Of a DNA stretch of 64,000 nt, positions 9,978 through 13,024 are shown piece after piece. The DNA is from Cupriavidus sp. WKF15 (lineage in GTDB: Bacteria; Pseudomonadota; Gammaproteobacteria; Burkholderiales; Burkholderiaceae): contig NZ_CP119572.1 of the NCBI RefSeq assembly GCF_029278605.1, forward strand, positions 682,001 to 746,000, read 5' to 3'. The notes under the pieces are model-generated. The model had not been told where the DNA came from and made no database searches. It saw only the letters and a program-made list of their open reading frames with translations. The position numbers and the translations under genes were made by a program. How positions within the stretch are numbered: position 1 is the first letter of the stretch; every line of letters starts with the position of its first letter.

Positions 9978-10598
9978 TTAGCCGCGCCGCTGCGGCAGGA
10001 TGGCGTCCAGGAACGCCGTGGCGCGGAATTCCAGCTCGGCCACGTAGTCGTCCACGCGGCGGCGGAAATAGCGCCAGAAAATCAGTGCCGGGATCGCCAC
10101 GATCAGGCCGAAGGCGGTGTTGTACAGCGCTACCGAGATACCGTGAGCGAGCTGCTCGGGATTGGCGCCCGTGCCGCCCTGGCTGCCAAAGATCTCGATC
10201 ATGCCGATGACGGTGCCGAGCAGGCCCATCAGCGGGGCGACCGAAGCGATGGTGCCCAGCGCGTTCAGGTAGCGCTCCAGGTCATGGGCAACCACGCGAC
10301 CAGCTTCCTCCACGACTTCCTTGGCGGCGTCGCGCGAAGTCTGCGGCTGCAGCACCACGTGGCGCAGTCCGGCCGCAAGGACGCGGCCCAGCGGCGAACT
10401 CTGTTCCAGCGTATTGACCACTTCCGGCGTGGCGCGGCGCTGCTGCGCGGCCGAGAGCGCTTCTTCGTAGAGGCGGGTCGGAAGCACCTTGCTGCGCTTG
10501 AGGGTAAGGAAGCGCTCCACGATCAGTGCCAGCGCAAGAACCGAAGCGAGCAGCAGCGGCCAGATCGGCCAGCCGGCCGCTTGAATGATCGAAAACAA
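9978..10598 (-). CDS. exbB: ExbB/TolQ/MotA-family proton channel protein
   Basis: 206 aa with three membrane segments: one at the N-terminus (WPIWPLLLASVLALALIVERF) and two in the C-terminal half (TIASVAPLMGLLGTVIGMI, LYNTAFGLIVAIPALIFW). Partner of ExbD. The frame has an upstream extension of 30 residues, but no ATG fits; the likely start is a TTG at 10598 preceded by GGGGGT, giving (M)FSIIQAAGWPIW. A GTG at 10604 is an alternative. Confidence 0.9.
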   Translation of the reverse strand: MFSIIQAAGWPIWPLLLASVLALALIVERFLTLKRSKVLPTRLYEEALSAAQQRRATPEVVNTLEQSSPLGRVLAAGLRHVVLQPQTSRDAAKEVVEEAGRVVAHDLERYLNALGTIASVAPLMGLLGTVIGMIEIFGSQGGTGANPEQLAHGISVALYNTAFGLIVAIPALIFWRYFRRRVDDYVAELEFRATAFLDAILPQRRG

Positions 10599-10795
10599 TT
10601 GGACCCCCGAATCGACAACCAAACACGACAAAAAAACGACCGGCTTTATATGGCAGGCCTTGGATGCGCGCACACCGGGTCTCTGCACGCAGCGGCACTG
10701 CTCCGAAAATCAGGCAGCACTCTAACCCGCGCCATGGCGCGCGGCAAGACGCTGGCAACGGGTGTCTCGGCCGCGCATCGGTGCGGTGACGCACG

Positions 10796-10909
10796 CTTTC
10801 CACAGCGAGGCGGGACAGTATTGTGGATGGATTGTGGAAACCAGCCGGACAAGCAGGCTAAGTTATTGATCCGAAAGGGTAAAGATGGCGCTGCCTGTTT
10901 TTTGTGCAG
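10796..10909 (+). repeat. Non-coding repeat unit A (DnaA-box-like, possible small RNA)
   Basis: First of three well-matched units in the exbB-xseA gap. Order: CTTTCCACA (10796-10804), GGGACAG, ATTGTGGATGGATTGTGGAA (from 10820), CTAAGTTATTGAT (10858-10870), then a weak hairpin CTGC...GCAG (10891-10909). TTTCCACA to ATTGTGG is 23 nt and ATTGTGG to CTAAG is 38 nt, identical in units B and C. It has no open frame of its own. Strand is assigned by the position of the terminal hairpin and is tentative. Confidence 0.75.
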
Positions 10910-10978
10910 ATCGGGTCTCACCGCCCTTATTTGGCTGTGGATAGGCTTTCGCAGGCATCGGGAGGGGTTTACCCGCTG

Positions 10979-11091
10979 CTTTCCACATGACTACGGGACA
11001 GGATTGTGGACGGCCTGTGGAAATTGTTCTGAGAAGGAAGCTAAGTCATTGATTTCAATGGGAGGATGCATCCCTGCCTAAAAAATGGGCA
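10979..11091 (+). repeat. Non-coding repeat unit B (DnaA-box-like, possible small RNA)
   Basis: Order: CTTTCCACA (10979-10987), GGGACAG, ATTGTGGACGGCCTGTGGA (11003-11021), CTAAGTCATTGATTT (11041-11055), then TGCC...GGCA hairpin (11075-11091). Shares a 19-bp identical core with unit C, 170 bp away, and the same internal distances as unit A. Confidence 0.8.
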
Positions 11092-11148
11092 ATGTGGCGC
11101 GCAGCAGCTCGCGGCATCTGCCGCCAAAGTCCTGGCCAATGTCGGTCT

Positions 11149-11262
11149 TTTTCCACACACCACAGGGAGAGCATTGTGGACGGCCTGTGGACAACCCTTG
11201 GAGATCGATCCTAACTCCTTGATTTATCAGGGGGTGCCGGCCATTGCCCGCAAAATAGGCAA
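11149..11262 (+). repeat. Non-coding repeat unit C (DnaA-box-like, possible small RNA)
   Basis: Order: TTTTCCACA (11149-11157, a full match to the relaxed DnaA box TTWTNCACA), GGGAGAG, ATTGTGGACGGCCTGTGGA (11173-11191), CTAACTCCTTGATTT (11211-11225), then TTGCC...GGCAA hairpin (11244-11262). Internal distances equal those of A and B. Confidence 0.8.
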
Positions 11263-11391
11263 GGGTACCGTGCAAAGGGCATGAAACAGGCTTGTGGCCC
11301 TTGGGATTCATCTCCCGGACCGGCTTGATGACATCGCACCGGCGCAGGCGACTAACGCTGTACATTCTCAGCGCTTGTGCCGAATGAATCT

Positions 11392-11490
11392 CTTTTATCC
11401 AGAGTTCCTGTGGATAACTTTGTGAACAAGCCCGGGGTGCCGCCTGTAAGTGATTGACGCGTAAGGAAATTGGTTACATTGCCTAATTTT
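11392..11490 (+). repeat. Diverged fourth repeat unit D with a perfect DnaA box
   Basis: TTTTATCC, CTGTGGATAAC (perfect reverse DnaA box TGTGGATAA at 11409-11417), GTAAGTGATTGAC (from 11446) and an ATTGCCTAATTTTT tail echo the order of units A-C, with a one-base change in spacing. It lies about 150 bp upstream of the xseA start. Confidence 0.5.
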
Positions 11491-11638
11491 TGTTGCGCTC
11501 CGAAAATTCATAAGAATCAAAGGCTTGTACCTACTCATGCGGATTCCGGCAGGGGTTGGCGACAACATATCTCCCCTCTTGACATAGCCGTTATGCTGTG
11601 GACATGTCCAACCCACGCCGCATGCACGGCGACGCCCC

Positions 11639-13024
11639 ATGCCCGAGCCGCAGAACTTTTCGCGTGACTTGCCTTCCATGCCCGCCCGAAACCCGCGCGA
11701 AGCGATCCCGGTCGGCGAACTGAACCATGCGATCGCGACCATGCTTGAGCGTGGTTTTCCTTTGACCTGGGTACGGGGCGAGATTTCCAACCTGACCCGG
11801 GCGGCCAGCGGCCACTGGTATTTCTCGCTCAAGGACGCGCGTGCGCAGATTCGCTGCGTGATGTTCCGCGGGCGCAATCAGCATGTCGACTTCACGCCGC
11901 GCGAAGGCGAGGCGGTGGAAGTGCGTGCCGTGGTTACGCTTTACGAAGCGCGCGGCGACCTGCAGCTTGGCGTCGAGGCCATGCGCCGTGCCGGCCTCGG
12001 CAATCTTTACGAAGCGTTCCTGCGCCTGAAGGAAAAACTGGCACAGGCAGGACTGTTCGCGCTCGAGCGCAAGCGGCCCGTGCCCGCGCACCCGCGCGCG
12101 ATCGGCATCGTCACATCGCTGCAGGCGGCCGCGCTGCGCGATGTGCTGACCACGCTGCGCCGGCGCGCGCCGCACGTGCCGGTGATGGTCTATCCGGCGC
12201 CGGTGCAGGGCGCCGGCGCCGCGCAGAAGATTGCCGACATGCTCGATCAGGCCTCTGCCCGGCGCGAGTGCGACGTGATCATCCTGTGCCGCGGCGGCGG
12301 CAGTATCGAAGACCTGTGGTCGTTCAACGAAGAGGTGGTGGCGCACGCCATCGCGCGCAGCGCGGTGCCGGTGATCTCGGGCGTGGGCCATGAAACCGAC
12401 TTCACCATCGCCGATTTCGTGGCCGACGTGCGCGCGCCCACGCCTACTGGAGCGGCGGAACTGGTCAGCCCGGACCGCGGGCACCTGCTGGCGCTGACGC
12501 GCCGGGCCGGGGACGCACTGGCGCAGTCGATGCGCCGCGAGCTGGACCGGCGCGCGCAGCACCTGGACTGGCTCGCGCGCCGGCTGCGCAGTCCGCAGGC
12601 GCAACTGCAGGAGCGGCGCGCGCGCGTCGACAATCTGGCGCGACACTTGCGTTCGGCATTGCGGGAGACCGTGGTGGCACAGCGCCACCGCCAGCAAGTG
12701 CTGGCGATGCGCTGGACCGCCTGCCGGCCCGACACGGCCGCGGCGAGCGCGGACGTCGCGCGGTTGTCGCAGCGCATGCAGGCCGCGGCGGCCCGCCAGC
12801 AGGAGCGGCAGGCGCAGCGCCTGGCACGCGTCGCGGGCGCGCTTGAACTGCTGGCGCCGCAACGTACGCTGGAGCGCGGCTATGCCGTGCTGCTCGACCA
12901 GCGTGGCCGCGCCCTGCGTTCGCCGGCCGAACTGCGTGCGGGCAGTGTCGTGGAGGCCCACCTTGCCGAAGGCGTGGCCGACCTTGCCATTGCCGCCGTG
13001 CAGGCCAAGCTGGGCGGATTCTGA
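11639..13024 (+). CDS. xseA: Exodeoxyribonuclease VII large subunit
   Basis: 461 aa. With XseB (not in the window) it degrades single-stranded DNA in both directions. N-terminal OB fold ([38 protein letters not shown]), catalytic domain ([53 protein letters not shown]) and a long coiled-coil C-terminal part. The start at 11639 lacks a clear ribosome site; an internal ATG at 11678 ([10 protein letters not shown]) is the alternative. Confidence 0.95.

Follow-up and report, generated by a model that had tools for sequence, protein, structure and literature searches.

Cupriavidus sp. WKF15 carries an array of four units in an intergenic segment of ~660 bp (Table 1). In the window, meaning the whole 64-kb stretch of DNA that was analysed, the array lies between xseA, which encodes the exonuclease VII large subunit, and a divergent gene on its left. 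The original prediction had named the flanking genes exbB and xseA; the xseA assignment was confirmed, and the left-hand gene can be placed only in the TolQ/ExbB family. The dnaA gene apparently spans the ends of contig C1, 693 kb from the array, and the array is positioned 18.5% of the chromosome away from it. In E. coli, DARS2 lies about a fifth of the chromosome from oriC. A reading of the array as oriC itself was rejected on the distance to dnaA, and neither the pattern of the units (≤2 mismatches) nor the canonical core described below (≤1 mismatch) has matches elsewhere in the genome. DnaA, IHF alpha and a Fis homologue are all encoded in WKF15; the IHF alpha gene scored above its curated cut-off, and the Fis homologue is 41% identical (E 2.1e-14).

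Table 1. Positions in the window of the flanking genes, the four units and their predicted protein-binding sites
Feature	Position	Strand	Remark
TolQ/ExbB-family gene, left flank, divergent	9978..10688	-	below all curated cut-offs; start codon uncertain
Unit 1	10796..10907
Unit 1 DnaA box I, CTTTCCACA	10796..10804	+
Unit 1 conserved GGGACAG element	10810..10818	-	possible weak DnaA half-site (putative assignment); starts 12 bp before next box
Unit 1 reverse DnaA box B, TGTGGATGG	10822..10830	-
Unit 1 reverse DnaA box C, TGTGGAAAC	10833..10841	-
Unit 1 predicted IHF site, TAAGTTATTGATC	10859..10871	+	off consensus at last base
Unit 1 Fis-type palindrome, GCCTGTTTTTTGTGC	10893..10907	.	loose consensus
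Unit 2	10979..11090
Unit 2 DnaA box I, CTTTCCACA	10979..10987	+
Unit 2 conserved GGGACAG element	10993..11001	-
Unit 2 reverse DnaA box B, TGTGGACGG	11005..11013	-
Unit 2 reverse DnaA box C, TGTGGAAAT	11016..11024	-
Unit 2 predicted IHF site, TAAGTCATTGATT	11042..11054	+	full consensus
Unit 2 predicted Fis site, GCCTAAAAAATGGGC	11076..11090	.	full consensus GnnYAnnnnnTRnnC
Unit 3	11149..11260
Unit 3 DnaA box I, TTTTCCACA	11149..11157	+	full consensus
Unit 3 conserved GGGAGAG element	11163..11171	-
Unit 3 reverse DnaA box B, TGTGGACGG	11175..11183	-
Unit 3 reverse DnaA box C, TGTGGACAA	11186..11194	-
Unit 3 predicted IHF site, TAACTCCTTGATT	11212..11224	+	full consensus
Unit 3 Fis-type palindrome, GCCCGCAAAATAGGC	11246..11260	.	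loose consensus
Unit 4	11395..11458
Unit 4 DARS-type core box I, TTATCCAGA	11395..11403	+	one mismatch to TTWTNCACA
Unit 4 DARS-type core box II, TGTGGATAA	11409..11417	-	perfect
Unit 4 DARS-type core box III, TGTGAACAA	11421..11429	-	one mismatch
Unit 4 IHF-like site, TAAGTGATTGAC	11447..11458	+	last-box distance as in units 1-3; overlaps possible promoter
xseA, exonuclease VII large subunit, right flank	11639..13024	+	TIGR00237, 474.3 bits

Site layout of the four units

Units 1-3 share one layout, consisting of a forward DnaA-box core, a GGGA(C/G)AG element, two reverse cores, a predicted IHF site and a Fis-type palindrome. With TCCACA set to 0, the GGGA(C/G)AG element occupies positions 13-19, the reverse cores (TGTGGA) stand 23 and 34 nt downstream of the forward core, TAAnnnnTTGA is at 60 and the palindrome (GCCTAAAAAATGGGC type) is at 94-108. 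The original prediction of three units with the same order of sub-elements and equal distances was borne out: box I starts at 10796, 10979 and 11149, and all three units have 23 nt from TCCACA to the first TGTGGA and 38 nt from ATTGTGG to CTAA. A repeat search detected 85-nt copies at 10795, 10978 and 11148, the latter two being 72% and 60% identical to the first. The DnaA-box-like motifs of the prediction hold as cores but not as full consensus boxes. Only two full TTWTNCACA boxes lie inside the array, so most of its sites are DnaA-box cores; the whole window has three full boxes against 0.78 expected, a number reached in 4 of 100 shuffles, which is not a striking enrichment. The IHF consensus is TAAnnnnTTGATW and the Fis consensus GnnYAnnnnnTRnnC (PMC8682772), and CTAAnTnnTTGAT agrees with the IHF consensus. 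Among the window units, 2 and 3 have the full IHF consensus and unit 2 has the full Fis consensus, the remainder being near matches. The element previously taken for a terminal hairpin is instead the conserved Fis-type palindrome, and the terminator scan reported none there.

A diverged fourth unit with a perfect DnaA box had also been proposed, and this box is present as TGTGGATAA (box II). In unit 4, box I is opposed to boxes II and III, and the starts of the three boxes are 14 and 12 nt apart. The DARS1 and DARS2 cores of E. coli K-12 likewise consist of one forward box followed by two reverse boxes, the first 14 nt away and the second 12 nt beyond it, and the unit 4 core is identical to them at 28/36 and 26/36 positions, respectively. 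The next best places in the 64 kb, on both strands, score 21 and 20. When the genome was searched for the canonical core at ≤1 mismatch, with a pattern that takes box III only by its TGTG, unit 4 was the sole match. By consensus check, the IHF site of unit 4 is only partial, and a clear Fis site is absent from this unit. Two stretches near xseA were also observed. At 11447-11490, the IHF-like site of unit 4 overlaps TTGA(C/T)G, and in much of the genus this motif has TACATT/TATATT ~15 nt after it; the pair is a possible xseA promoter, although the consensus scan did not report it. At 11579-11608, directly upstream of xseA, a block TTGACA...GTTATGCTGTGGACATG hardly varies within the genus and holds another TGTGGA core.

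Counted from where the last box begins, the TAA of the IHF site is 26 nt away in all four window units. In units 1-3, box I lies one helical turn further from the next clear box, giving I-to-II and II-to-III distances of 26 and 11 compared to 14 and 12 in the DARS cores, and the gap is filled by GGGA(C/G)AG. GGAnA is found again at positions 14, 37 and 48, with GGA at position 26, in steps of 11-12 bp, and this phasing suggests that the gap element could be a weak, reverse-oriented DnaA site. If so, the first three sites of units 1-3 would stand 14 and 12 apart. A profile of the units gave a weak fourth match on unit 4 in 4 of 10 genus genomes (G001, G019, G033 and G102), in the columns of boxes B and C, IHF and Fis, which supports a shared register.

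Conservation and distribution of the units

To describe the array in relatives, we used a genus sample of 36 genomes including WKF15, 34 of them with xseA; 30 loci were analysed, with G015, G019, G031 and G033 left out. To be counted, a unit had to have both reverse cores, plus a forward core in relaxed form, at the fixed spacing, and an unforced listing of all TCCACA and TGTGGA occurrences gave the same spacing in 30/30 genus loci. Positions 0-109 of the units hold register across these loci and the linkers vary, with distances of 118-216 between units 1 and 2, 159-216 between units 2 and 3 and 243-283 between unit 3 and box II of unit 4. Twenty-seven units from three genera could be aligned over 113 positions with one indel. 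GGAnAG in the gap element is invariant in these 27 and varies in a few of 90 genus units. Pairwise identity between species was 0.89-0.92 in the site columns and 0.45-0.49 in the spacers, a contrast that is partly built in because the columns were selected by conservation. The IHF core TAANNNNTTGA was found in 66/90 genus units and the full IHF consensus in 43/90. The loose Fis consensus matched 80/90 at offset 94 and the full one 40/90; no other offset from -10 to 105 matched the loose consensus in more than a fifth of the units. In genus g48, 14 units passed from 6 loci, the middle unit of three loci having no forward core. Here the IHF core was present in 8/14 and the full IHF consensus in 1/14, and the Fis consensus was present in 13/14, with two other offsets matching almost as often because the g48 sequences are nearly identical.

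The arrangement of the sites is rare. In the window, the pattern TCCACA-N17-TGTGGA-N5-TGTGGA had four matches at ≤3 mismatches compared to 0.03 expected from shuffling; these were units 1-3, matched exactly, and a minus-strand match with three mismatches that overlaps unit 1. In the 7.38-Mb genome, the DnaA-box arrangement occurred three times at ≤2 mismatches, always in the array. At ≤1 mismatch the pattern was found in 98 of 398 family genomes, and a reversed-pattern control in none of the 398. Exactly three units were present in 57/59 genomes of the window's genus, one of the others having two units and one (78% complete) none. Three units were also found in 14/16 genomes of g48, with two units in the other 2/16, and the single g28 genome has two. 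We take g1, the window's genus, to be Cupriavidus and g48 to be Ralstonia. In other genera, 23 genomes had one match, except that one of the 23 had two. Among the matches listed, the seven other-genus genomes that match the pattern at one mismatch have no GGGACAG element, so these matches need not be the same thing. When a collection of 84,980 species was searched for the exact pattern together with the IHF core, 46 stretches were retrieved, all labelled Cupriavidus, Ralstonia or Burkholderiaceae bacterium. At E ≤0.01, a sequence-only profile of the 27 units had matches in 72 of 120 family genomes. Only g1, g48 and g28 gave strong ones (53.8-84.9 bits), and the next best scored 25.6 bits. This search took at most 31 first-look candidates per genome under strict filters, so weak copies may have been lost. 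In genus g35, weak unit-like matches were paired 0.2-2.6 kb apart on one contig (G069:C2, G089:C13, G106:C4, G120:C31, G148:C3, G156:C6 and G163:C2), and are perhaps DnaA/IHF sites near replicon origins. Collectively, the fixed spacing in the 30 genus loci and in the three-genus alignment, the copy number of three and the variable linkers give good support to the original prediction of selection on spacing rather than recent duplication.

The core of unit 4 is kept in 30/30 genus loci, where box I reads TT(A/G)TCCA(G/A)A, and in the six g48 loci box I reads TTTTCCAG(C/G). Upstream of xseA in g33, g35, g37, g44 and g49, boxes II and III are present without box I, and in g40 box I is degenerate. 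TGTGGATAA is absent at the xseA place in 6 of 30 family loci (L100, L102, L103, L104, L107 and L108). Upstream of xseA in L086-L089 and L091-L093 there is a bare tandem pair, TGTGGATAACt(c/t)TGTGnAnAA or a close variant, without box I, which is possibly an ancestral state. Across the class, the canonical core (≤1 mismatch) was found in 274/369 genomes. Of three other genomes of the order within this sample, one had it, which does not establish the core as a general feature of the order. A single shifted spacing was tried, in which boxes I and II stood 5 bp further apart; it matched 3/185 class genomes, compared to 141 of the same 185 at the DARS distance (the latter counted by eye from a table). 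These frequencies indicate that, as a sequence pattern, the DARS-core spacing is both specific and common across the class. None of dnaA, dnaN and mnmG was found among the flanks of DARS-type cores in other members of the class, for which 20 proteins from 10 of 30 listed loci were scanned, WKF15's own being among the listed loci; ten of these proteins had a family match at E ≤1e-15 and ten stayed unnamed. At four loci in other members of the class, the DARS-type core adjoins priA (L111, L114 and L133) or rpmE (L109), which may be another conserved location of DARS-like sites.

Candidate roles of the array

The original prediction had offered a small RNA or a protein-binding array. The second alternative is well supported, with putative DnaA sites, by the unique arrangement, the three copies in almost all genomes of the genus and the fixed spacing. 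The first did not stand up, and we consider it very improbable that the units are tandem small RNAs such as the betaproteobacterial toxic small RNA family RF02278. The earlier note had pointed to such tandem RNAs, and RF02278 copies do exist in the WKF15 genome, with two places above the cut-off (68.2 and 53.8 bits); the array itself, however, does not match the model, either at the gathering score (50 bits) or at E up to 10. Folding z-scores ranged from -1.01 to +0.94 for the three units on both strands, promoter-like sites numbered 0, and there were 2 terminator-like sites compared to 1.4 expected. The consensus fold has 6 pairs, which join DnaA-box cores that are invariant in the 27 units, and its covariation term is 0. 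Matches to RF02278 in the genome lie at G000:C1:513505 and C1:3472996 (above cut-off) and at C2:372752 and C2:965739, and in Burkholderia cenocepacia four transcripts of this family have been listed (PMC4603805). Neutral, decaying repeats are scarcely credible: spacer identity between species is indeed low, but the site columns are highly identical (partly by construction), their spacing is fixed and the copy number is three in 57/59 genomes.

Two further explanations accept binding proteins and differ in what the binding would achieve. The array could be a DnaA titration locus or a datA-like inactivation locus, in which phased DnaA sites and IHF gather ATP-DnaA and sequester or hydrolyse it. 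The four reverse GGAnA motifs in steps of 11-12 bp beside an IHF site are consistent with this, and E. coli datA likewise joins DnaA boxes and IHF (PMC4585315, PMC10380432). We nevertheless judge it unlikely, if the strongest of the alternatives, as the array boxes all lie on one side of IHF, whereas the IHF site of E. coli datA lies between boxes; minimal datA has no Fis site (PMC10380432); and box I opposes the other boxes, as in DARS. Titration alone would not need a spacing fixed over 110 bp, and by itself leaves the fixed IHF and Fis sites and the DARS-core geometry unexplained. Rather less likely still is a control region responsive to DnaA, IHF and Fis for the divergent xseA and TolQ/ExbB-type genes, coupling a DNA-repair exonuclease to the cell cycle. 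Copies do lie upstream of xseA in 30 genus and 6 g48 loci (these loci were fetched by xseA), a conserved block with TGTGGACAT directly precedes xseA, and the possible promoter overlaps unit 4. Against this, the consensus scan found no sigma-70 promoter-like site in 10600-11660, three far-upstream copies at variable distances would be unusual for a promoter, and unit 3 ends ~380 nt before the start of xseA.

In its order of core, IHF and Fis, the array is closer to DARS2 than to datA, and we therefore regard a tandem DARS-type locus as the most likely explanation. It is probable, with chances somewhat better than even, that the array is a DnaA-reactivation locus in tandem form that works like DARS2. 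Unit 4 would provide a canonical DARS core with boxes II and III set against box I, so that bound ADP-DnaA could meet head to head; DARS boxes I and II allow such a meeting (PMC8682772). Units 1-3 would be compact, extended modules, each with its own IHF and Fis-type site. IHF and Fis would bend each module and drive DnaA-DnaA contacts, and these contacts would release ADP. Apo-DnaA would then leave and bind ATP, and ATP-DnaA would rise before the next initiation at oriC. Binding by DnaA, IHF and Fis, ADP release and an effect on initiation timing are all predicted here from sequence. A bolder form of this proposal, which we put forward tentatively and regard as possible but doubtful, is that in Cupriavidus and Ralstonia a multi-copy reactivation array replaces the single DARS2. 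In this form, a canonical core and three DnaA-IHF-Fis modules of new geometry would act through site dose, which, doubled at fork passage (18.5% of the main chromosome), would set the ATP-DnaA level and might also time the secondary chromosome.

DARS-like sequences are reported to be conserved in many proteobacteria (PMC10380432), even in "beta- or gamma-" proteobacteria (PMC5742627), and V. cholerae has them (PMC6090056); the DARS2 core and Fis are, by contrast, described as restricted to E. coli relatives (PMC4245941). Since reviews report DARS-like sequences in proteobacteria, the idea of DARS outside E. coli relatives is not new. No description of a DARS-type locus in Cupriavidus or Ralstonia was found in the literature searched, a search whose reach took in few subscription papers. 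Two Cupriavidus genome papers describe DnaA boxes near origins and, for C. metallidurans, a 65-nt cluster at 3,707,588-3,707,653; a search of both for the terms DARS and xseA found neither. The tandem compact DnaA-IHF-Fis module thus appears to be new, as far as literature searches reach. The recharging of ADP-DnaA at chromosomal sites has been worked out in E. coli. Four DARS-type units in one segment would be a clean target for asking if reactivation is modular and dose-dependent, and the array would also be a target for studying how a multi-replicon bacterium times initiation. The tandem small RNA reading is a false lead that is now removed.

Comparison with E. coli datA, DARS1 and DARS2

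Like the array, E. coli datA combines clustered DnaA boxes with an IHF site. Minimal datA consists of boxes 2, 3 and 7 and one IHF site (PMC10380432), and its IHF site lies between DnaA boxes, whereas the boxes of every array unit lie on one side of IHF. With DARS1 the likeness is in the core, since unit 4 has the same box order and spacing. DARS1 lies at bioD-uvrB, where the array does not, and it releases ADP in vitro without additional factors (PMC5742627).

DARS2 requires its core, IBS1-2 and FBS2-3, and the positions of the sites relative to the core matter (PMC4245941). The forward-reverse-reverse order of boxes is found in unit 4 and in units 1-3. Unit 4 has the same three-box core as DARS2, with box I opposed and the +14/+12 spacing exact. 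Units 1-3 have an extended box I distance and depart from this spacing, unless GGGA(C/G)AG is counted as a weak box. In a consensus scan of E. coli DARS2 (L041), the core is at 636-670, IHF at 747 and Fis at 781. This order of core, IHF and Fis recurs by consensus in units 1-3, but the distances differ, IHF being about 85 nt from the last box in DARS2 compared to 26 nt in the array units. DARS2 has one unit and the array has four. Both loci are intergenic; DARS2 adjoins mutH and the array adjoins xseA. As the array is not at mutH, we call it DARS-type rather than a DARS2 orthologue.
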